Below are positions 17,281 through 64,000 of a DNA stretch of 64,000 nt, in pieces. A program made the translations under genes and the position numbers. The stretch covers positions 124,001 through 188,000 of the forward strand of contig JACATO010000600.1 of assembly GCA_018389105.1 (NCBI GenBank). Reading direction: 5' to 3'. The stretch comes from Nautilus pompilius (taxonomy: Eukaryota; Mollusca; Cephalopoda; Nautilida; Nautilidae). How positions within the stretch are numbered: position 1 is the first letter of the stretch; every line of letters begins with the position of its first letter. The notes beneath the pieces were generated by a model. That model worked only from the letters and a program-made list of their open reading frames with translations. It made no database searches and was not told the DNA's origin.

Positions 17281-18500
17281 ATTGTAAGTAAAGCAATAAA
17301 TTTGTTTTTTTAAAAGGTTTGGTTTCTTTTTGGACAGACCTCATATCTTCTGAAGATGAAGTAAATCCTCGGTATAAACTTCCTCTTTGTGTGAGTCTAA
17401 TAACTCCTCCACATCATCTATATCCACCTCATGAAACTCTACTTTCCTTGCCAATTTTATGACATTTTCTTTGGTTTTATCGATATCCTCATTGACATTG
17501 AACCTCTCTAAATCATACTGTAGATAAGGGCAAAGTTTCTTGCATATATTGCTCATGCAAAAAAGTCTAATCCCCTTCCAGGCCTCGTCAACAAGCATGA
17601 TGGAGTTCTTGATGGTGAAACTTTTCCTGAATTCTTTCACTGAAAATTTATTATATTCAGTGACCTTCACAAGCATATCAAAAGTTTGCTTCAGATAATA
17701 AGCCATAAAAGTAGCATTTACACCATGGTCCATGGGCTGAATAAGAGGCACTGTGTTGGGAGGTAGAAACACCACTTTTATGTTTTCACAAAGGACTTGG
17801 ATTTTTGGTGGACGACCAGGAGCATTATCAACGAGGAGGAGAATCTTGAAGTTGAGATTCTCTTTCATGCAGTATTTGTGCAGTTGATCTTTAAGCTTGG
17901 AACCAACATAATTACAGAAAATTCTACCTGTTATCTACCCCTTGGCATTGGAATAATAATAAGCTGGAAGAATTTGTTTCACAGGCCCTTTAAGAGCATG
18001 GGGATTTTCTGAATGATACACCAACACTGGCTTCAAATTGCAATCACCTTCGGCATTTCCACCCAGCAGCAGCGTAAAATGATCTTTAGCAGCCTTAAAG
18101 CCTGGTGCTGATTTCTCTTGAGAAAGATATGTTCTAGATGGCATCCTCTTCCACAAAAGTGCCGTCTCGTTAAGGACGAAAATTTGCTTTGGGGAATATC
18201 TGCCTTCCTCAATGAGTTTTCAAGGTTGCAATAAAACTTTCCATAGCATTAGTATCAGCAGATGCTGCTGCTCCAGCCATTTTAACATTATGTAAATGAT
18301 ATCTTTTTGTAAAATTAGTGAACCAACTTGAACTTGCATTGAAAATCTTAATATCCTCTTCATTCTTCGTTAAATCCCCGTAAATTGAATGAGCTTTATC
18401 TTGTGTCAAAAACATGTTGACAGGCGCATTCCGCTGGTTTTGATCCTTTATCCACATACTCAGCATCCTCGCCATCTTCTCCATTATTTTCACTTCTTGG

Positions 18501-22327: not shown

Positions 22328-22863
22328 TTTCAAGTGTTTGTGCATTTGTGCATTTATTTGTTACTCTTTCATGGTCAAACCATAGCTACTTTTCAGAAGC
22401 CTTATAGATTAAACTTAGTTCACTGCAGTCATTCAAAATAAGTGACTAGCCTAGCAGCCTCAAATTATAATGAAGGTATCTCAGAATCAAAAGTAGAATC
22501 CAAGGGTACCAGGGCCCTGACCTTGTTCCCTTTGAATTCAAGAAAATCCAGTTTTTTATAAGACATCAGCTTTGCTATGACCATTGATAAAGCGCAGGGT
22601 CAATCATTGAAAATTGTTGGCCCCAATTTGGTAGACCATGCTTTTCCCATGGACAACGGTATGTTTGATGCTCAAGATTTGGCCAAAATAAAAATCTGTT
22701 TTGCTTTTCACCCCAAGGAAAAACTAAAAACATAGACTATAAAGATACTCTTATTAGCATCATTTAAGTGTTTAGAGAAATAAAATTTTTGTTTTCAAAT
22801 TAATATAAAACCATTTTTATAAAAGCCATTTTTTTCCAAGGTGATGCTGGGCACCCCAGCTAG
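22328..22863 (+). mobile_element. Helitron 3' fragment with canonical terminus
   Basis: The right end has the Helitron signature: a perfect 6-bp stem hairpin GCTGGG-CAC-CCCAGC (22846-22860) whose last C starts the terminal CTAG (22860-22863), followed by T. CTRR after a hairpin, inserted before T, is the defining 3' end of the superfamily. Upstream lies a scrap of the Pif1-like helicase (22552-22733). The first part (22328-22515) is a dispersed repeat with a second copy at 60086-60345. Helitrons are thought to move by rolling-circle replication using a Rep/helicase protein; here only the 3' portion remains, and the left boundary is approximate. Confidence 0.8.
22552..22733 (+). pseudogene. 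Helitron Pif1-type helicase C-terminal scrap
   Basis: The frame from 22571 reads FAMTIDKAQGQSLKIVGPNL, matching the conserved late helicase motif of Helitron Pif1-like helicases (FAMTINKxQGQxLxxVG). Relatives continue with a block like CFSHGQLYVACSRV; here that part is diverged (HAFPMDNGMFDAQDLAK) and ends at a TAG around 22733. No Rep domain or Walker A motif is present in the window, so this is the tail of a once larger protein. Confidence 0.78.
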
Positions 22864-23125: not shown

Positions 23126-26100
23126 CAGGGGTATCAAGCATATGGCCTGCCAAAGTCATCCAGCCTGTGGAGGGGCTGATGGCAACCCCTCCTCCTAACA
23201 TTTTTTTGTATCCCCTCTGTAAAAACAAAAGCACACATTGTAATAGACATTTCTGGCATCCCACCCCACAGAATTATTGAAACAAAATTGGATCTCATCC
23301 TTTATAGCACCCGCCAATGATAACAGTAGATCTGGAATACAGAAGACTGACCGTAGTGAGAAAAATATGTTGACTAACCTGCACATACATACATGCATTT
23401 ATACGTCCAAACAATAACCAAAAAAAGAGAAAAAAAGACTGATGTTTGAAGGAAGTACAATTATTGTATTCAGTTAAAAGCAAAATAAAATAAATCCTTA
23501 CCCAATAATAGAACAAACAATAAGAAAAGAGATAAGTTATATAAAACACAAAGAAGTAAAGCCACGTATAATAAAATTTAGTCATTGTATAGAAAACTAA
23601 ACTGACCTGCATTATATCAAATTAAACTGTTGTCAGTTGAAATTGGTTTCACGCCCAATACCCGAAACTAAGTAAGACATTCTTTGATTGGTGGCCCACA
23701 CCACATTCTATTCAATGAAAACAAGATCTGCAGGCTGATCAAGAGATCGACTGGAGAGAGAGGTATCAACTACCAACAGATATTAGCAAGTGAGCCGAGA
23801 AAGTGTCAAAAAGGAATTGTACTCCTTGATCACTTTACCTAAAAAGGGGATAGTATCAGTTAACCATTGTCATGTGATTGAAACATGTTATCAAACAAAT
23901 GAGAAATAGAAAAGAATGTTGTTTAACTCGAGAAAAATGGAGAAATTCGTATTTCCTTTTGGAACAGAATAGAATGAACAACCTGCTTGATTTCCACACA
24001 GGTTGCAGTTTCCAAACTGTGCTATGTTTTGAGACACAATACTAATCATGCTATCAAGTACGATAACTATACTGGGAAGTTACATGAGGACAAATATGCT
24101 GAATTAGAATAGTTGTTGAAAAAACAGCCATCAGTATTTAAATATCTGCACAGTAAATGATGATGCAGTCAAGGCAAATTATGTGATTGCCATGAAAAAG
24201 CTGTGTCATCAAAACCCTTTTGGAAGGGAACTTTTTTGAAAAAATGTATGTTGAAGATTGCAAAGTAATGTGAGCAGATAAACGCTAAGCTTTTGCTTAC
24301 ATAATCCTTTCAAGAAACACAGTTGCAGCAGAGAGAATTACTGATTCATCAGTGAACCTCAACAGAAGCACAAAGTCATGTCTTGTGTTGCATTTCCAGT
24401 TGCCATTGATGAAAGTACAGTTATAACTGATGTGGCACAGTTACAGTTTTCATTCATGGTGTTGACACGGTGATGACATCTTCAACAGTTTGGTGGAAGC
24501 TCTGAGAAAAATAGGTGTGACTGGGCACATACTGTGAGTCTGGCTACAGACAAAGCACCACAAATAGAGGGTAGAAAAGCTGGAGTTGCCACAAAGTTAA
24601 AAAAAAACTGTTATCTTGGACTCAAAGCCATCAGTTTTATTCATAGCATTGCCCTTTGCACCAAGAAGCACTCTGTAGTAAAAGACTAAAGATGGATAAT
24701 GTTATAGATGTAGTTATAAAAACAATTAATTTTATATGAGCATGAGTCCATAACCACAGGCAATTTACCTGCCTCTTGGAGGAAAGTGAAAACTCTTGTG
24801 GGCTTCCATATCACAGCTATGTTTGCTGGCTAAGTATAACTAATAAAATAGTTCTATGAATTTCTTAGTGAAATACAGTTGTTTATTGATCAGAAAAGGA
24901 AAGTTTACCTGGATTGCAGGATAATGAATGGCTTCAAGATCTTGCCTTTACAGTGGATATTACAAAACAGCAGAATTGTCTGAACAAAAAGGTGCAGTGC
25001 TGCAACAATTTGGTGACAGAACTTTATGACTGCATCCATTCCTTCAAAATTAGGCGTCAGTTTTGAGAAAAAAAACTTTCAGAAGTAACCTGGCACCCAC
25101 CTTAAACATAACATGACATGGCTGACTCGCATTTTGATGCCTTCACAGAAAAGTACAGCAGCAAAATTTTAAAGTTAAAATAGGAATTCCAAGATAGGCT
25201 TTTTGACTTTAAAAGCCTTGAGAAAAACTTTTTGATTTTTCAGAACCCATTTTCTGTCAATGTTCACCAGCTCTGTCTGTGGAGCTTCAGCTGAAAATAA
25301 TCAATCTGCGGTGTGACTCTGTTTTGAAGAATAAGCTTTGTAATAGTGATGTTGGCACATTTTATCAATATCTAGAACCAAATTATCCCATGTTAAAGCA
25401 TTTTGCTTCAGAAATTCTGTCCATGTTTTGGACAACATATGTCCATGAACAGATCTTTTCTGTGACGAACATTAATAAATCAAGACTATGTTCTCAAATT
25501 ACTGATGCACACTTGAACTCAATACTCAGGTTTGGCACAGCCCAATCAATTGCTCCAAACTTTGATACATCGATCCAAAATAAAAGGTGTCAGGTATTAG
25601 AAAGCAGCAGTAGAAAGTAAATAGAATTAGTTATATATCAGTATACTTATTTTCTACAAACCTATTCTTTTAATTGTAAATTGTAGTTGTTGTAGAAGTG
25701 ATTCTACTGCCATTTTGATATCGCTGATATCTAGCAATAAATAGCATCATGTTTTACAGTGTTACGTTTGTGTGTAGTGATTTAATTTTAGATAAAACTG
25801 TGTTTCAGATTGTTTGATTTCTCCTGATTTCTCGAAATAAGAGACATAAAAGACAAAATACATTTATCCAGATAGAATAGTACAATTACTGACTGCCCAT
25901 TATGAAATTAGTGACAGGGGTGCAATTATTATTAGGTAATTTAAATGAAATAATGTTAGTTTTCCCCTTACCTCTCCCCCCACACTCTATATTTCATATA
26001 TAATAAAAGAAATGCAATTTCAAATCAGATCTAATTTTGGTGTGATTTTCTTTTATGGAAATATAAACTTATTCAAATGTGTGGGATAATTTCTAAATTT

Positions 26101-26755: not shown

Positions 26756-27704
26756 ATTTTATGATTCCTGGAAATCCATGACATTCCAGAGTCCATCATC
26801 ACCTGTGGAGCAACATTATCACTGGGCCATTTGATAAACTGGAGAGATACTTTTTCTTCATAAAATTAATTCTACAAATATTACATGCAAAGTTGTTTTG
26901 TTTATTGCAAGTCTATTTATCCATCTAACCTTTTAATTGCCACTCATAATGATACTAGAATCTTTCTCTAAGCAGGGTTCTCCATTGAATGTGATTCCTA
27001 AGTTTATGCAGAATTTTTTTAAAAAGTTTGTTTTAGGTTTATATAGATAGATTATTTAAACATTGAAGCTGTTCATTACTATCAGTAATTTCATGAGTGT
27101 ATCTTAGTTTATGCTCGGGTGAGGTGTTTACATCTAGTGTACACTTTTAAAATTATAAAAAATGTATTTTTATTGAGCTTTAAATAATAATTTTATTGCT
27201 ATAATTCTCAATAAACTCTTATTTATTTTAAGTTAATTATACAAATAATGTTTCCAAATTATGTTAAATATACATTTTTTTAAACTGTGTTTGCACTTAT
27301 AATTGTAGCAATACTTTGATAGCATTTATTCTTCTTCACCAGTCAGTTGTGTGGGTTTCTGATTTTTGACCACATCTGATGAAGAGTTCTAGTAATGATT
27401 TACCTGCCAGAATCGGAAATATTTTATGGCATAATAGCAATATCGTGCAAAGATTCTTCAGGCATTTAATGATTTTGTCCACAGATCTTTTGATAACTTT
27501 TTTTAAAACAAATTTTAAATGATGCCAACTTAAGTGAGTTCAATAATTAAAACATTTAAAATAAATATTTAAGCTGAAGAAATGTAGTCCTGAAAACTAG
27601 CAATAGATTGTTCTGCCAATATAACTATAAACTAGTTATATACCATAATATTTATTTTATCACCATCTTATAATTGTGTGTACATATGCATGATAATTTA
27701 TTAC
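26756..27704. other. AT-rich noncoding stretch
   Basis: No gene or element recognised between the hAT-1 target duplication and the next element. Confidence 0.6.
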
Positions 27705-27706
27705 TA

Positions 27707-29040
27707 CAGGGTGCGGCAAAATGATCTGACACATTTGTATTTTTAATAAAAGCCAAATGGAGTAAAGAACGAAAAATTTGTTTTTATTTTCGAAATGTAC
27801 ATAGAATGCCATTTTTTTCCATTTGGTTTTAAAAATTAAATCACTCAAGTGGGTACCGTTATTGTCCACACACTGTCGAAGGCGTTCACGAAAGTTGTCC
27901 ATAGCCTGGCGGGTCATTTCATGTGGAATGGCAGCAATTTCTTGGCGAATGACATCTTTTAATCGCTCAATAGATCGAGGGCGATGAGTGTATATCTTTG
28001 ATTTCAGATATCCCCACAGAAAAAAATCGCACAGGTTCAAATCAGGTGATCGGGCGGGCCAACCGATGTCACCACGCAATGAAATCAAATGACCGGGGAA
28101 CATCTCCCTCAAAATTCCCATCGCACGTCGAGAAGTGTGGGCTGTTGCCCCATCCTATTGAAACCAAACATTGTCCTTAACGTCAAGTTCATTCAATTTG
28201 GGTTTCAGAAAAGTGTCTAGCATCGAACAATATCGACCAGAGTTCACAGTCACTGTAACATTGTCTTCTTCGAAGAAGTAAGGACCCCAAATGCCAAATT
28301 CTGCTACCGCACACCATACGGTTACCCGAGGACAATGCAAAGGGCGTTGGTGCAACTCACGAGGGTTATTCTCAGCCCAGTATCGTAAGTTTTGCTTATT
28401 CACGCTGCCACACAGGTGAAAATGCGCCTCGTCACTGAACAACACAACAGCTGCACGGGGGACATGTTGTTGAATTTCCAAACACGATGCTCTGCGAGTT
28501 TTAAAGTCTCTTTCGCTGAGTTGTTGTGCCAACATCATTTTGTACGGATGCATTTGCAGTTCCATGTGAAGAATTCTTCACAAACTTCTATCAGAAAGGC
28601 TAAGAGCAGCGGCGTGTTTCCGTGCCGAACGTTGTGGAGACTGTTGAACTGAACCTCTTACCGCTGCCACATTTTCCGGAGTTCTGGCAGTCTGAGGTCG
28701 GCCGGTTGATTTTCGTTTCAATGCTGATCCACTAGCTCTAAAGTTGGTAACCCACAGCAAAATCGTGTTTCGAGTAGGTACGGGATCATGTCTACCAACC
28801 AAGCCTGAAATGTACACGGAATGCTCTTTGTGTTGCAATTACGGATTCGTTGTTTTTGATAAAGGTTTCCACGATGAAAGCGTGATGTTCGCCCGTCCAA
28901 TTCATGTCGGCAACTGAAAACGAAATGAAACAAAATGGCATTCTATGTACATTTCGAAAATAAAAACACATTTTTCGTTCTTTACTCTCTTTGGCTTTTA
29001 TTAAAAATACAAATGTGTCAGATCATTTTGCCGCACCCTG
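27707..29040 (-). mobile_element. DD41D Tc1/mariner-superfamily element, long TIRs
   Basis: 1334 bp flanked by TA on both sides (27705-27706 and 29041-29042). Both ends begin CAGGGTGCGGCAAAATG and the terminal inverted repeats extend about 108 bp (27707-27814 and 28933-29040) with roughly three differences, unusually long and well matched. The transposase is on the minus strand. Near-identical TIRs plus few coding breaks suggest that this is among the younger insertions in the window. Confidence 0.95.
27800..28905 (-). pseudogene. DD41D transposase, nearly intact
   Basis: A minus-strand ATG at 28903-28905 starts MNWTGEHHAFIVETF. Then come a helix-turn-helix region with linker SALKRKSTGRPQTARTPENV, catalytic motifs FSDEAHFHLCG (first Asp), an Asp after WFQ in DGATAHTS (second, about 28150) and SPDLNLCDFFLWG (third, about 28030), and a tail with ERLRQCVDNNGTHL. 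Counting residues, 41 separate the second and third Asp: DD41D spacing. Visible damage: a 4-bp duplication early in the frame (near 28810), a TGA at 28578-28580 and a TAG at 28155-28157. All three catalytic Asp remain. The 3' end of the frame lies next to the left terminal repeat. Confidence 0.92.
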
Positions 29041-29042
29041 TA

Positions 29043-29921
29043 TTATACATATCAAAACTTTTAAAAATCTGCAGAAATACAGAGTATAAAAATCACAAAT
29101 TTTGGATTTCAAACTTCAAATTAGGAATCCTATTTAATTTAATATCTGAATCTTGTTTTAAATGAACACAAAATGACTATCTGTTTTACCCCTTTCTTAG
29201 ATTTAAAAAAAAAGTATTAAAGTTATAAATTGAATATATTTTTGGCATGTCCAATGTGATCTGAAATCTGAAGTGCCTATACACCAGAATATTAATTGTT
29301 AATAATAATGATTCATACCACCTTTGTTTTTCTGTCTATCCAAAGTAACTGAAGGCAACAACATTACAACCTTATTCTCAAATCTATTGTAATTTAAATG
29401 CATGTAGTAGAGTGAAAGTAAAATATTGATATACTGGCAGGCATCATATCTATGGGCTACTACTATTTGTACTACGGACATGTTGCCGTTGCCATAAGGT
29501 TTTATAGTTTTGTTTGAGAACAGATTTTGCTGGGTTGTGAGCAAGAAGCTTCCTTGAATGCCAAGTTTTAGTCCCAAACATTTTTTTTTTTTGCTTGCTT
29601 ATATTCAGGTATCTATTGAGATAAGATGTAAATATTTAAGAGCTGATTTTAAAGTAACCCTTTGCAAAGTATAGCTAATTTTTCAAAAATGATTTATTGT
29701 GCTATTTGTAATTTTATTTTGTCAACTTATGCAAAAATAGCTATTTCGCTAGATGAGTGTAATTATTTTTTTCAAGATTAATTGAGTTACTGTAAAGAAC
29801 TGGTGCCACAAAGTTGGCACCTCAATCATATATGTGACATATGAAAACTATTTTGGTAATCTGTATTATTTTCATACTTTACGGAGGAGGGTATTTTGAT
29901 GAAAGGTATCTCTCTCCATAG
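29043..29921. other. noncoding stretch with a small hairpin
   Basis: A perfect 7-bp stem GGTGCCA-CAAAGT-TGGCACC lies at about 29802-29821. Otherwise no element or gene is supported before the candidate exon at 29922. Confidence 0.5.
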
Positions 29922-42496: not shown

Positions 42497-44205
42497 ATTC
42501 ATGGTTCAGAGAACAAGAATATGTTAAAAAATTGAAAAAATAAACAAACAAACGATAAGAAAGAACAATCAATCAATTAGTGTTGTCACTTTGACAGCAT
42601 GGTTACTGAAAATATGCACTGGACAGATTAAGAATTTTTGCATGCTTTCTGCTTGGCATTATTTTACTTTTGTCCTTTTAGTTAAATGTTTACCAAATAT
42701 CTAAAACAAACTGCATCAATAACTACATTTGTAAATGACAAGATTAACTTCATGGTAGATGGTTTTATTTGTAAATCATCCTGCACCACTGATATACCGT
42801 ACACTCTTTCATCATCTGAGTCCCACTAGGTTTCAGTGAAGCTAATAACAAAGTTTTCAATATTTAAATTTTTTTTTTATTTCTGCCAAAATTTGCTCAT
42901 TTAAATTGTTTTTTTCTACTTTAATTTTTACTAAGAATTAAAAATTTTAGAAGGTATTCATTCTATTTTGATGCTGGTCTATTTCACATTGTTTCAGTTT
43001 ATAAAAACAAAAAAGTAAACCAGCTGCCTTTACATGCAAAAATAAAAAATAGTTTACTAATATCTATGGTTGTTCATTTGTTTAAAAAATGTGCAACCCT
43101 ACTATTAATTTAGTATGCATGAATGGCTAGCCATTCTAATTTCAGCCTGTCTAAGCAGTGTAACAAAAGTGAAGAAACATCTGTGCACACAAGATAGAAT
43201 GCGTATATTAATCCATATGCTGTAGTTTTTATATATGACATAGTAAGAGGTCGTCATGTGAGATACTGTCTTGCTAAAAATATGCTATCATTTTATGTTG
43301 GCATCAGATTATATTATCAAATATTTTATCATCTGACATGCAATAGCTGTTTCTTATAAATAAGTATATAAAGAAGTTTCGCCTTTTGTCAATGTTCACA
43401 TTTCTACTCTTCCTGACCAGAAAATGAGATCATTTATCAAACAAAAACAAAATACTGACTGCACGTGTTTTCTTTCTCCTTTATTAACAATATGGAGAGA
43501 GAAAAGAGAGTTCCATCTTTGAATTTAGATGTGATATTTATTGGATGCATTTGGTGGAGATAGTGAAGATAATGGGACTGGTTAGAAAATCAAGATTCGT
43601 ATTTTCCAAGTCTACAAAGCATTGATGGAATTGCAGCAAATTTTCCAGTATTTGGAGTTGTGCACAGAGGAAATTGCTACAGGAAAGAGATAGAAATTAA
43701 TTAACAAAGATTGCACAGACATGTTAGTATTTAGTGGTGCAACAGTTAATGCATGCACAAGAAACAGTGTGACATGCAATTTGGTAGTTATGTCCTTATC
43801 CGCAAACTACTTGTCTTTGCTGCAGACAAAGATACAGCTTCATTGGTATGAGTATCTTCAAAATTGGAATATGGACATGTCAAGATGTGCCATGTATTCA
43901 CACAAGTTATATTTCACATTGTTTTAATAAGTTGAAAAGGTAGAGATTTTCCATTAGATCTTTCTTGTATTTCTACTGTGCATGCTCATTTTCATAGGGT
44001 AATGATTTTGATAACATTTTGATGGCATGGTCTTATGGTTAGGAATATATTGCATCTTGTGAATATTTGTGCAACATTATGAACTGGGTGTATTTTTCCC
44101 ATTTATTTCTTTTCAGAAACTATCATGAATATAAAATTTAATTGGTTTAGAAAACATGAGGCAAACTTAGGACATTTTGGCCATCATAATCACTGGATGT
44201 TACCC
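42497..44205. other. noncoding stretch
   Basis: AT-rich; no gene or element termini supported. An open frame at 43721-43927 is unrecognised. Confidence 0.5.
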
Positions 44206-44373
44206 CTATTACATTGGCCAACATTTTTTTCACTTTTTTTCTGCTGACTAAGATCTGACACTTGTTTTTAACTAATTTAGGGGCGCTGATTTCAAAAATA
44301 AAATTGGTTTTTGCTTATCACATCAAGTCTTTGTTCTACGGCATTTGCATTTGTTCAAGTTTTTGTTCTACAG

Positions 44374-45118
44374 GATCTTAAAATGGTTCACTTTTTACTT
44401 GGTCAACAAGGAGGATACACGAAATATCCATGTTTCTTGTGCCTGTGGGATAGTATAGCTAAGGACAAGCATTGGGCTCAGAAGAACTGGCCAGTGAGAA
44501 ATTGCTTAAATGTCGGAGAACCAAATATCAAAAATCAACCACTAGTAGATCAGGTAAAAATCATCTTTCCTCCTCTCCACATCAAATTTGGTCTAATGAA
44601 GCAGTATGTTAAAGCTCTGAGCATAGAAGGTGACTATTTTAAGTTCATATGCACAACATTTCCTAGCCTCAGTTATGAAAAAATAAAAGCTGGTGTGTTT
44701 GACGGGCCACAAATAAGAAAACTGATGAAATCAACATTTCACAAGCTCCATGAATGATATAGAGAAAAGAACATGGAATTCTTTTGTGGCTCTTGTGAAA
44801 AATTTCCTGGGAAACAAAAAAGATGAAAATTACAAAGATCTTATTTAAACATTGCTTAAGAATTTTCATTGTCTTGGTTGCAACATGAGTATAAAGGTTC
44901 ATTTCCTCAACAGTCATCTTGATAAATTTCCTGAAAATCTAGGTGACGTAAATGATGAGCAAGGTGAAAGGTTCCATCAAGATATACAAGCTATGGAGGA
45001 GCGATATCAAGGAAGGTGGGATACTCACATGATGGCTGACTACTGTTGGAGTATTAAAAGAGACTGTTTGGAAATGAAGCACTCCAGAAAAGCCTACAAA
45101 CGAAAATTTAATCCATGA
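44374..45118 (+). pseudogene. uncharacterised invertebrate protein family member
   Basis: Residues begin DLKMVHFLLGQQGGYTKYP, then CFLCLWDS (a CxxC pair), KIIFPPLHIKFGLMKQYVKA, LSYEKIKAGVFDGPQIRKL, and after a frameshift near 44740 and a TAA near 44849, SHLDKFPENLGDVNDEQGER, FHQDIQAMEERYQGRWD, and a basic tail SRKAYKRKFNP before TGA at 45116-45118. I recall this sequence type from many uncharacterised arthropod and cnidarian proteins, often multicopy, which suggests a transposon origin; the function is not known to me. An acceptor-like 'ttttgttctacag' directly precedes 44374, so the true start is probably an upstream exon that is absent here. The cysteine pair and the Asp/Glu/His-rich later block could be metal-binding or catalytic (inference). 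Confidence 0.7.
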
Positions 45119-45188
45119 AAGAAGAATGTGTCATTTACTGATATAAGTTAATGTAAATAAACCATATCTGTCATTGTTTTTGTTTGTA

Positions 45189-45395
45189 CAGTATTCTAAA
45201 TGAAATGGTAAGAATATTCTGGATTAGGTTGTGCCCATTTTTGACTAAAATTCATTCAATTCTAGCATCAATTTATGTTTTACTATTTCAATATTTTGAC
45301 CTGATGTCATAGTTAGCCAATATATTTGTTAATCTCAAAATTGATTCATGGTATTGTTTATTGGAATGGTATTCTAAATAAAATGATAAGAATAG
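45189..45395. repeat. imperfect direct repeat downstream of the gene
   Basis: GTATTCTAAATGAAATGG (about 45190) and GTATTCTAAATAAAATGA (about 45369), each followed by TAAGAATA, lie about 180 bp apart inside the inverted-arm element, in its 3' untranslated part. Confidence 0.6.
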
Positions 45396-45590
45396 GATTG
45401 AGGTGACTGTGGAAATCATTGTAATCAGGTACTTTTTATGGCGATTGATCGAAAATGGGGTATGCTGTAGAGTGAAAACTTGACGTGATAGGCAAAAACC
45501 AATGTGATATTTGAGTTCAGTGCCCCCAAATTAGTCAGAATCAAGTCTCAGATATAAGTCAGCAAAAATTGTGTTGACCAGTGTTATGTA

Positions 45591-46511
45591 TTTGTGGGAA
45601 AATTTAAGCATACGTCTCTACCATAAACTCTACCTGATATGGAAGTAATATTGGCTGAGAATTGGGAAAAAATGGCAAACATCATCTAAGAGCATTGGAA
45701 TCAATGGTATTATGTAATCAGGCTATCATTAAAGGAATGTACTGTGCCCTAAATAAACTATTAAGTAGAGGCTTCTAAATTTTTGGCTAGGCAGTGTAGA
45801 TATCAAAGTGTAGTAGTTTGACTAATGATCAGCTTATAAGTTCATTTATTATTTTGTAAATTGTTTAGTTTTTACTTAATTAAAGTGCTCTGATGTTATA
45901 TATTTTAATATTTTTATGTCGATTTTATGTATTTAAAGATAATTTATAGAAATTGAATGCTTTATAAGCTGTGAAGATTTCATGTTTTTCTCAAGTAATA
46001 TTTTGAAGCATTTTCTTGAGGAAGATAAACTACTTTTCTTTGTAAGTAACTTCTGAGAAAACAGACTTTAGGAAATAAGCAGATATTGACTTTCTTAAGA
46101 ATTTTCTTATTAGCATTGTAAGATTAAAGAAGAAAGAAAATTGAAAATATGATCAGAAACTGTTTTAAATAAACATTTATTTTGAATATAACAGCCTTCA
46201 GAAAGTAAATATGTGAAAAACAGATAAAAGGCAAATTTCAGTTCTTTTCTAATATTGATTGACAGCCAAAAGTGAATTTTTAAATGTTTTTTCAGTTCAT
46301 TTTATTTTTTTTATTCACTTGCTTATCAAAATAATAAGCTAATCACAAAAATATGACCTGATAAATTTGGACAATGTAGGTAATACATACATGCGTACAT
46401 AGGATCATGTTCTACCCAGTTGGCCATAGTTGTTTTCTACCCATAAAAGCTAAAATGAATAAGGTGGATGAAGAGTTTCAAGAAAGTAACTGATTGCCAC
46501 TGGCAAGGCAG
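45591..46511. other. noncoding stretch
   Basis: AT-rich, nothing supported. Confidence 0.55.
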
Positions 46512-51851: not shown

Positions 51852-52304
51852 TTAAGTTGTCTGACATTTGGAATTCACACCTGGGCCAAAATAGAGGTCA
51901 ATACACTCAGCTGTTCTGTGATTGGATAATATGCTACATACCTCTGGGAAACCACCATGGTGAATACTGTACACCAGTAAAGAAAGATAAGGATAAATGT
52001 AAAGATAGTGATCATTAGTTGCAATTTGTTTGGCTTTTAGTCTTAGCTGTACAGTACTAAATCCAAGACACATGACACGTTGGCTTAGCACATATTCCTC
52101 CAACTTATTCTCAATGTTAGTCCACCTAGCTTTGCAGCCACGATTTGCCTTTTGGGTTTTCTTTGTACTCTGTAATGGATCCTTTGCTTTAGACCAGTTC
52201 CTAACACATTTCTTGTTGACATCATATATCTTGTACGTGGCTATATTAAAATGATTTTCTTCAGCATATTTAACAACTTGCAGTTTAAAAGCTGCTGAGT
52301 ACAA
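51852..52304 (-). pseudogene. pogo-type DNA-binding domain with divergent tail
   Basis: The minus-strand ATG at 52302-52304 starts MYSAAFKLQVVKYAEENHF, then VNKKCVRNWSKAKDPLQSTK, KTQKANRGCKARW and NKLEEYVLSQR, STVQLRLKAKQIA. This matches the tandem helix-turn-helix N terminus of pogo-like transposases (KxxxxFKLxVVxYAxExGN; VxEKxVRxWRKxK; STxxIRxKAxxIA). After about residue 97 the frame leaves the family and runs through unrelated sequence; no DDE core was seen. It is an unusually clean DNA-binding fragment of about 95 residues. Confidence 0.8.
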
Positions 52305-52328
52305 CTTTCATCACTTTATGGGAGACAC

Positions 52329-60085: not shown

Positions 60086-60345
60086 ATTTCAAGTGTTTGT
60101 GCATTTGTGTGTTAGTTTGATACTCTTTCACAGCCAAATCATAGCACCTAGAGACCACATATTTTGGATGTATTTACTTCAGAATCTGGGCATGGTTTAG
60201 GCTATTGTGAGGCCATCATAGACCACTTTTAAAAAGCCTTTTAGATTACATTTAGTTCACTGCACTTGTTTAGCCTCAAATTATAATGAAAGTGCCTTAG
60301 AATCAAAGGCAGGATCCAAGGGTAACAGAGCCTGGCCTCAAAGGC
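60086..60345 (+). repeat. second copy of a Helitron-associated dispersed repeat
   Basis: It shares TTTCAAGTGTTTGTGCATTT, then ACTCTTTCA, CTCAAATTATAATGAA and GGATCCAAGGGTA-type blocks with 22328-22515. This copy keeps about 90 bp (from 'cctagagacc' to 'catagaccac') missing from the first. The TTTGTTACTCTTTCA.. block is a repeat I associate with Helitrons and other dispersed elements in invertebrates. No hairpin/CTRR terminus follows this copy. Confidence 0.7.
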
Positions 60346-61096: not shown

Positions 61097-62030
61097 GAAA
61101 CCATCATGGTCTTTATACAAGGAATGGGGTATCATTAACAAGTAGTGGTAACATTTATTTTATTCATTTAATTTTGCATCAAGAAAAAAAATAAACTACC
61201 TTAATATCAGATTCTTCTCTTTGTCCAGTATTTATAATGCATATTTTTAACAAGAAGAATTCAGACTATTCCCTTGCTTAAAACCCTTAATTATTTTGAA
61301 AACCAAACCTCTATGATTTCTCCTGCAATGTCTAATATAGTAATACCAAAACTAAGTAAATCTGATTCTTTCTAATTGTTTTACACACTTAAAACTTATT
61401 GAAAATAATTTTATGGCAAATTTTATAAATATTAAAGACATTCAAATGAAACCAAGACCTTGGATACTATTAAGGTAATGCTATTTCAATTAGGTTGTAT
61501 TTAAATATCTCTAGTACCATCCATAGAGTCAAACTGCATTATGAGATCATCTTTTTTTATTTGATTCTGGTTGAGATATGTAGTGCTCTAGTTCAGTTCT
61601 ATTTCAGAAAAAATTCTGAACTGGATTGCATACGTAGTCCAGCCTGTGAACATGAACAATTTATTATTGTTAAGCAATATGTCAACAAACAAAATAATCT
61701 GATCAACATTGTACCAAAAATGCACACATTTATTCCACAGTGGAAAGAAATCAATTTTTTTACAAAAAAGTAAACACAATCAATTAAGGATACAAAATCA
61801 CATTCATCCTTTGAAAATATTGTTTCAACAGATCACTATAATGTCCTCCAGGATGATGGTGATAGCACAAAGTTGAGACCAGAAAAGGCACATTCATCTA
61901 TAAGTTAAGTTGGTGGAATAACCATTTGTATGACTCCGGTTTGGTGTTACTTAGTTGATGCTAGTATTTCCAAAATGCTTTCAAGGCTCATGAGTAAAAA
62001 CATCTGAAATTGTATTAATGTTGTTTATTG
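61097..62030. other. noncoding stretch
   Basis: AT-rich, nothing supported up to the base-composition change near 62.05 kb. Confidence 0.5.
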
Positions 62031-62039
62031 ACATAAATT

Positions 62040-64000
62040 AATGACAAGATGACTCTCTTCTTTTACTGGGTTCTCTTTCCTGCAGAAACTTAAGTTTCCT
62101 GACATTAATTACCTTTTCTACCTGCTTTGCTTGATGGTTGCTTGTTGTTGTTGTTATCACTGAAGATGCCGCAGGATAATCCTGAGGAGCGCCATTGATG
62201 TGCTTGGGAGGCGAATTAGCTCCTTCATACTGCGTCCCAGGCCAAGTTGTTGGTGCTCCGCTAGGAAGGCGGGACACCGTAGCCAGAGGTGTTCAGACGA
62301 CTCCACCTCCTCCTCGCACAGCTGGTATGTAGCAGTCTCCGACACGTTGATCAGGAACTGCCATTGTCGTAAGCATGGATGGTGCCCGCTGCAGAAGCGA
62401 ACGAGGTCCGTCCGGTCAGCCTTGGAAAGTAGCGTGTCTTCTAGTGGTTTGATTGGTGAGGAGTAGACTTCTGCCAGACGGACATGGGACATCAGTGGTG
62501 GGCGTCCACTCTGGTGGATGATGGCCGAGCATGTAGCAGGATCTAAAGTGGTCTCTGTTTGTGGCTCAGCAGCACCCATTTTGGCTTCTGCATCTTCCAA
62601 TTCGTTGCCCGGCAGGTTGCAGTGTCCTGGGACCCATACAACCTGTAGTGAATGGTTGGCCGTTAGCACGCCGATTTCTCTCTGAAGTGCAGTGATAGTC
62701 GGGTCCATAGAGCAATTGGCCAGGGCTGTGACAAGTGATTTGCAGTCGCAGACCAGTAGCGCCGATTTCCACTCATCATTGTCATGGAGCCATTTTACCA
62801 CTCTCCATTGCTGTTCTCTCAGCTCTGAAGGAACTGCACACACGACCTGCCACTGTGTGCCACCGGTAGATGATGTCCTCATTTAGTTTGACCACCAGCC
62901 TGGCTCCCCCATTGTTGGTCCCTTTGGCAGTTGAGCCGTCAGTATAGATTTCCATGTCTGTTGGACCTAGAGCGGCGAGCCCCTCTTGTGCTCTCCGCAG
63001 CTGCTGCTCTGTGGGGTCACCCTTGGACACCGTGGTGAGAGTTATCGGTACCGGTGGAGGTCACTGCCAGGGAGGTGGGACTGGGGGTACCTGTACGGTT
63101 GGTGTTAGCAGTCCTAGATCATCCAAGGCAGGTATAACCAACATTTGTCAGTCCGATCTGCATAGCCACTGCCGTACTGCATTGTGTAGTAGTTATTGAC
63201 GTGGGTCTCCATTCTCCAGCCTGTGCCATCGGTCAGCTAACTGCAGTGCGTGGACCTGGTAGCGGCATCGTAGGGAAGGGAGATCAGTCTCCCGCAGGAC
63301 TGCTTCAATTGGCGTTCTCCGGAGCTGTCGTGTTATCGCTCGGGTTGCATGTAGTTGCGACTTCTCCAATCTCTGGAGATTGGAGTTGGAGATCCAGGGC
63401 GTCCAGGTGGGGGCGGCGTACTCGGCTGGGAACGGTGCGTTGCAGTATACACCGTTCGTAGATATTGCGGGTTCCAGCCCCAAGTGGTACCTCCTAGATG
63501 ACGGAGGAGATTGTTTCGATGAGTCATCCATTGACAGATGTCCTGGACATGGTTACCAAAGGTTAGCCGATGATCAAAGCGGATCCCCAGGAAGGACGGT
63601 GAGTCTGTGTGTTGGAGGGGCATGCTGTTGAGGGTGACACTTGGTTTGAAGTCTGCCTCAGCTTTGTCAAGGGTGAAAAGTGTCACTTCACTCTTTTGGA
63701 TATTGAGCTGTAGGAGATTAGCCAATGCCCAATGTTTCACCTTCTCTGCCTCCCCTTCCAGCTGCATAGCAACGTTCTCCTTTCTATGCCCACGGCAGGC
63801 CAGAGCGAGGTCATCAGCATTTGCTGACCATCATGGTGGTTTTGAAGCACCCCAAGAGGTCATTCATGAAGATGACAAATAGGAGCAATGACAGGACTGA
63901 CCCTTGCGGGAGTCCTTCCTTAAAAGTGCGACTGCGGCCCATGACACCATTGAGTTGAACTCTGGCGATGCGGTTTACGAACCACGACTAAGTCCACTCC
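62040..64000 (-). mobile_element. non-LTR retrotransposon (LINE) with RNase H, 3' half
   Basis: The GC content rises abruptly from about 62.05-62.15 kb to the window edge. On the minus strand the order is reverse transcriptase (64000 to about 63200), RNase H (about 63030-62560) and a Cys/His tail, then a stop at 62157-62159 and a short 3' region with CAA repeats. A Reverse transcriptase-RNase H order with a C-terminal zinc-knuckle-like segment is found in the I group and related LINE clades. The element continues beyond the window; its endonuclease and ORF1 are not visible. Target duplication not determined. Confidence 0.88.
62157..64000 (-). pseudogene. LINE ORF2 fragment: RT, RNase H, zinc knuckle
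   Basis: RT motifs: FKEGLPQGSVLSLLLF (about 63930-63880), then ANADDLALACRG (about 63830) where relatives have YADD, so the Tyr is Asn; LLQLNIQKSEVTLF (about 63715-63670), FLGIRFDHRLTFGNHV and RAITRQLRRTPIEAVL (thumb region). RNase H: EIYTDGSTAKG (first Asp, about 62950), FRAERTAMES (Glu), LLVCDCKSL (Asp, about 62748) and VWVPGHCNLPGNELEDAEAK (last Asp, about 62600). The tail LCEEEVESSEHLWLRCPAF fits the CxxxHxC-type post-RNase H motif. At least three frameshifts occur (near 63830, 63500 and between RAERT and the next block). Long open pieces (241 codons at the end) suggest a comparatively recent copy. Confidence 0.88.

Follow-up and report, generated by a model that had tools for sequence, protein, structure and literature searches.

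A high-copy element of probable Chapaev3 type in the Nautilus pompilius genome, presumably an internal-deletion derivative of a longer transposon

Analysis of a 64,000-nt stretch of the Nautilus pompilius genome (hereafter the window) revealed that the 1,372-bp unit at 44212-45583 is a high-copy repeat of the host genome with sharp borders. Judged against the published description of the family, the unit is very probably a nonautonomous Chapaev3-type transposon (Chapaev superfamily, CMC group), a derivative from which about 1 kb has been deleted. Of what is presumably a DDE-type transposase it retains the 3' half, with the second D, C(2)C, LH, H(4)H and E; the catalytic roles are predicted from sequence. 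The features of the window copy are listed below; the motifs and presumed catalytic residues were placed from sequence and alignment.

44209-44211, no strand: left target-site duplication TTA, preceded by A at 44208
44212-45583, plus strand: nonautonomous Chapaev3-like element, 1,372 bp, starting CATTGG here (CACTGG in most copies) and ending CCAGTG
44212-44344, plus strand: left terminal inverted repeat (5' arm)
44371-44757, plus strand: first piece of the transposase relic, beginning shortly ahead of the presumed second D and closed by a TGA stop, with the half upstream of it apparently deleted
44374-44376, plus strand: codon of the presumed second catalytic D (VLQDLKMV)
44431-44442, plus strand: C(2)C motif (CFLC)
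44575-44580, plus strand: LH motif (PPLHIK)
44729-45118, plus strand: second piece of the transposase relic, in another frame, with TAA at 44846-44848 and TGA as final codon
44900-44917, plus strand: H(4)H motif (HFLNSH)
44957-44968, plus strand: EQGE, either E of which is the presumed last catalytic residue
45462-45583, minus strand: right terminal inverted repeat (3' arm)
45584-45586, no strand: right target-site duplication TTA, followed by T at 45587

Window positions 44200-45600 (1401 nt) served as a DNA query against the host genome (2,558 contigs, 728 Mb), and 936 first-look candidates resulted; the 40 copies scored are the best-scoring ones and no random sample, and the copy number is a lower bound. 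With identities of 88-100%, all 40, among them the copy in the window itself, span query positions 156-1373 of 1401 or more; they share both arms and the coding block with sharp outer borders, the pattern that the first-pass annotation had suggested looking for. Copy-to-copy conservation falls sharply at about 44208 and about 45587. That annotation had placed an unclassified inverted-arm element at 44205-45590; the element is there, and its limits lie slightly inside that span, at 44212-45583. The inverted arms, earlier counted as 72/88 identical, were recovered at 44238-44344 and 45462-45568 as 107 nt with 80% complementarity (86/107 identical, E = 1e-25, blastn comparison of the arm regions), a value of the same order. 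Alignment of 30 reoriented copies revealed that the arms run out to both ends of the element, differing in length by about 10 nt close to the tip, and are terminal repeats as had been suspected. In this alignment a typical copy starts with CACTGG(C/T)CAACA and ends with TGTTGACCAGTG, and each copy is 2.2-5.4% off the majority sequence. In about half of the copies the core had seemed inverted with respect to the arms, an appearance that vanished once minus-strand matches were reoriented.

The target site was analyzed on 36 of the 40 copies, with L024, L030, L036 and L038, whose ends were mislocated by the script, excluded. The 3-mers flanking the element are identical in 20 of the 36 copies, compared with 379 of 1260 mismatched left-right pairs, and differ in the remaining 16; at 4 bp no copy (0/36) has matching flanks. 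The identical 3-mers comprise 11 TTA, 8 TAA and 1 CTA, so that 19 of the 20 are TWA. Outside the triplet, the neighboring base is A on the left in 31/36 copies and T on the right in 36/36. The middle base of the triplet agrees between left and right (17 T/T and 10 A/A vs. 5 A/T and 2 T/A, P-value = 0.001, Fisher test, leaving out one C/T and one G/T copy), an agreement that palindromic ends would not produce. As far as composition alone is concerned, a 2-bp AT duplication is also compatible, since AT/AT flanks fit 27/36 copies by composition; it leaves the middle-base agreement unexplained. Insertion of the element probably duplicated 3 bp, for the most part TTA or TAA, with A before and T after them. 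The left end is CAC in 27/36 copies and the right end GTG in 28/36, both being intact in 20/36 and the others mutated at one or both ends; the window copy starts with CAT rather than CAC. In a search for empty sites with the joined flanks of the 40 copies, no retrieved sequence matched across the junction.

Taken by itself, the window copy would also fit an inverted duplication that arose locally around the relic of a host gene, unrelated to transposition. We give this explanation next to no probability, as arms, core and borders recur together in the 40 scored copies, which lie at different genomic places, and the copies carry the 3-bp duplication signal. The association of gene and arms was also followed from the protein side. 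Searching the genome with the protein yielded 4,485 candidates, of which 150 were scored; all 150 matched at E = 2.4e-60 or better, four of them in frames of 311-406 aa. It had been reasoned that genes without arms would mark the association as local, and 29 of 30 protein-matched loci keep same-strand matches near both ends (62 nt or less from the 5' end of a reference copy and 15 nt or less from its 3' end, match pieces below 60 nt being admitted); among the 30, L050 is without the 3' arm. These 30 loci include the window copy (L041), and no fewer than four of them (L048, L059, L065 and L067) had already come up in the DNA search.

The coding relic that the first-pass annotation had recognized between the arms consists of broken frames across 44302-45115. 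A 151-aa open frame at 44302-44754, which includes CFLCLWDS and PPLHIKFGLMKQ, closes at 44755-44757; past the frame change there is a 39-aa stretch to the stop at 44846-44848 and then an 89-aa stretch at 44849-45115 with DEQGERFHQD. The CxxC pair and the Asp/Glu/His block, which had been put forward as candidate metal-binding or catalytic sites, coincide with the C(2)C, LH, H(4)H and last-E positions of CMC-group transposases, and the window element is without the presumed first D (D1). The coding block sits in a high-copy element with terminal inverted repeats, and the suggestion that the protein family is transposon-borne is supported. Some copies retain longer open frames than the window copy: stop to stop, L008, L016 and L022 have 270 aa, L004 has 276 and L019 has 281 (5 of the first 30 copies with at least 270 aa).

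Coding changes across the 40 copies amount to 266 synonymous, 660 nonsynonymous and 48 stop changes, with expected fractions of 0.262, 0.682 and 0.056. Because the changes match the expectation under no selection, the half gene looks like a passenger, and the copies, including that of the window, decayed without sign of protein-level selection. Short P-element proteins act in trans as repressors or helpers of the full enzyme. By analogy, the truncated protein from second D to E could once have acted in trans on the full enzyme and shaped the spread of the family; this is very unlikely in our view, and the lack of protein-level constraint among the 40 copies counts against it.

Two longer copies obtained by the protein search, L071 and L072, point to how the window unit arose. 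The gap between the 5' arm and the gene is 1,024 nt in L071 and 1,044 nt in L072, compared with 30 nt in reference copy L004. This additional sequence codes for a Cys-rich N-terminus and for a block reading WRLFLD(S/I)SKRSL, in which the presumed first D lies. Since these copies carry about 1 kb with the N-terminal half and the first D, the window unit would be an internal-deletion, nonautonomous derivative; that the change ran from the longer form to the shorter is the probable direction. Neither the deletion nor the missing presumed first catalytic D had been part of the first-pass annotation. The spacing between D1 and the second D (D2) is 53 residues in L071 and L072, and that between D2 and E is 197 in L008, or 194 with the other E of EQGE. 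By arithmetic from match spacing, the longer copies are about 2.4 kb; the 5' tips of both and the 3' arm of L071 are damaged, so that neither has two clean termini. In L013 the 5' arm joins the D2 codon, with the junction reading ...TTCTACGG directly followed by GATCTTAAAATGG and about 1 bp of shared sequence in our reading; at this point other copies, that of the window included, carry roughly 24-33 additional nt.

Related elements with long open frames were also detected in the host. With the N-terminal half as a genome query, 3,172 candidates were obtained, of which 150 were scored, giving 151 matches. The matches listed are at E = 1.5e-45 or better; 8 of them, counting the query's own locus, share 81% identity or more and the others 43-55%, and many of the latter lie in frames of 470-618 aa with no stops within the match. 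The open frames of four such elements, stop to stop, are 594 (L073), 582 (L074), 618 (L075) and 567 codons (L076). L076 has inverted repeats of 115 bp at 83%. Beside ends of the CAC(T/A)GG type, duplications were found in L073 (TTA/TTA), L074 (TTA/TTA) and L076 (TAA/TAA), and L073 carries both CAC and GTG; the right end of L075 is damaged. Three of the four related elements agree with the window unit in the type of their ends and duplications. An alignment of L074, L076, L073 and L008 has no variation at C(2)C, LH and H(4)H, which follow one another in that order; single copies may be mutated, the first C of C(2)C being replaced by R in L071 and L022. D1 is present in all six sequences that reach its site and D2 in seven of eight (H in L074), the assignment of the triad being ours.

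These features together, namely the ends, the TWA duplication, the motifs, the element length and the transposase size, support assignment to Chapaev3 by its published description. In PMC4079192, Chapaev at large is given CAC/GTG ends, and the Chapaev3 elements examined there have a TWA duplication between A and T; Merrow, Garfield and Conan of Chapaev3 resemble the element here in ends and in a 3-bp target duplication. The C(2)C, LH and H(4)H motifs described for Chapaev3 transposases, mostly encoded by one exon, occur here in the same order (PMC4079192). Garfield and Merrow elements are 2,289-2,455 bp with transposases of 556-562 aa (PMC4079192), in line with the longer copies of about 2.4 kb and the related frames of 567-618 codons. 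Nonautonomous internal-deletion derivatives, too, are described for Chapaev3 (PMC4079192), as proposed for the window unit. The host is different, the derivative here is 1.37 kb and retains the 3' half of the gene, and the Merrow and Garfield genes have two exons (PMC4079192), whereas open frames are continuous here. The consulted sections of PMC2884549, PMC4298943 and PMC3630058 contain nothing that alters the Chapaev3 reading. The first-pass view of an unclassified, perhaps poorly described class II group therefore gives way to a match with the features of the described Chapaev3 (PMC4079192).

EnSpm/CACTA proper, another branch of the CMC group, was weighed against Chapaev3. According to PMC12730594, C(2)C and H(3-4)H are common to the whole CMC group, and CAC..GTG ends with a 3-bp duplication are also given for EnSpm (some EnSpm/CACTA elements having CAC ends and 3-bp duplications; PMC12730594, PMC1636069). 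However, PMC4079192 reports TWA flanked by A and T for the Chapaev3 elements that it examines and gives the C(2)C-LH-H(4)H order, the 2.3-2.5 kb length and the 556-562 aa transposases for Chapaev3 families, while the CACTA-related TRC elements of animals have CCC ends and 2-bp duplications (PMC12730594, PMC1636069). The element here also differs from EnSpm/CACTA in having no Transposase_21 match in Pfam scans, and we consider membership of that branch unlikely. Less probable still is a CMC lineage distinct from every named one, whose likeness to Chapaev3 would be due to convergent ends and target: the transposase stayed below the cut-off of every Pfam model and Chapaev3 was matched by description, not by named sequences, but the diagnostic features tested coincide with the description of Chapaev3 (PMC4079192).

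Pfam scans of the relic, L008, L071 and L072 found no model at cut-off, Transposase_21 (PF02992) and the DDE profiles included. Similarly, no Harbinger-type DDE transposase was matched in Pfam. The target duplication of Harbinger is TWA. PIF/Harbinger elements are alike in their 3-bp duplication (PMC12730594); the element here differs in having no Pfam DDE match and in its C(2)C/H(4)H signature. A genome profile search with PF02992 gave no match anywhere, but as the controls were equally silent it carries no weight. No credible match was obtained from PDB, and the transposase would presumably adopt an RNase H fold. Matches to Styelin (0.012) and others in Pfam, to PHROGs (0.033 and above), to fusion glycoproteins in PDB (0.036 and above) and to further PDB entries (0.66 and above) were discarded as chance similarity. 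No relatives were found in viral contigs, prokaryote contigs or plasmids by searches of which some viral and prokaryote ones were weak, using patterns from one sequence or near-identical copies, and two further viral-contig ones demanded exact matches to one pattern each.

Several other repeats and frames were observed in the window. Inverted arms of 129 nt (95% complementary, TACAGGGTGCGGCAAAATGATCTGACAC...) lie at 27702-29045, and the minus-strand frames 27663-28154 and 28158-28577 between them look mariner/Tc1-type, with no Pfam match at E = 0.01. Minus-strand frames at 17341-17931 and 51855-52307 match DDE_1 (E = 5.8e-14) and the Brinker DNA-binding domain (E = 2.4e-7, over the curated cut-off), respectively, and 25222-25617 has a weak match to the hAT dimerisation region (E = 4e-4, just under the curated cut-off). 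At 62000-64000 the GC content is 52%, compared with about 27-39% in the rest of the window, and its minus-strand frames include one with a weak RNase H match (62160-62882); a LINE perhaps ends here. The stretches 22328-22516 and 60087-60332, 38 kb apart, contain blocks that are 85% identical in direct orientation and form a further repeat. Elsewhere in the genome (G000), four equal-score protein matches form pairs about 10.6 kb apart (C2019:1445101 and 1455732; C2314:1297944 and 1308574), which are probably a duplicated segment or one region assembled twice.

The window copy is best explained by loss of about 1 kb from an element of about 2.4 kb, which would have fused the 5' arm to the presumed second-D codon; because of this fusion, the first D and the Cys-rich N-terminus would have been lost. 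The derivative retained both terminal inverted repeats and then multiplied; in a cut-and-paste manner, a full-length transposase of the same or a related family presumably acted in trans on the inverted ends to excise and insert it, which gave rise to the many copies. Each insertion would have duplicated 3 bp, mostly TTA or TAA, within an A-TWA-T target, and the copies, that of the window included, later decayed with no sign of selection at the protein level.

Because many related copies in the host have long open frames, the Chapaev3-type group may have been active recently in this species. The hallmarks of Chapaev3 are present, so that the finding helps annotation without adding a novel type of element. 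A protein family that the first-pass annotation knew only as uncharacterised multicopy sequence gains a probable identity as Chapaev3-type transposase, and a profile built from L073-L076 would let annotation pipelines purge from gene sets such copies, which the Pfam library misses.
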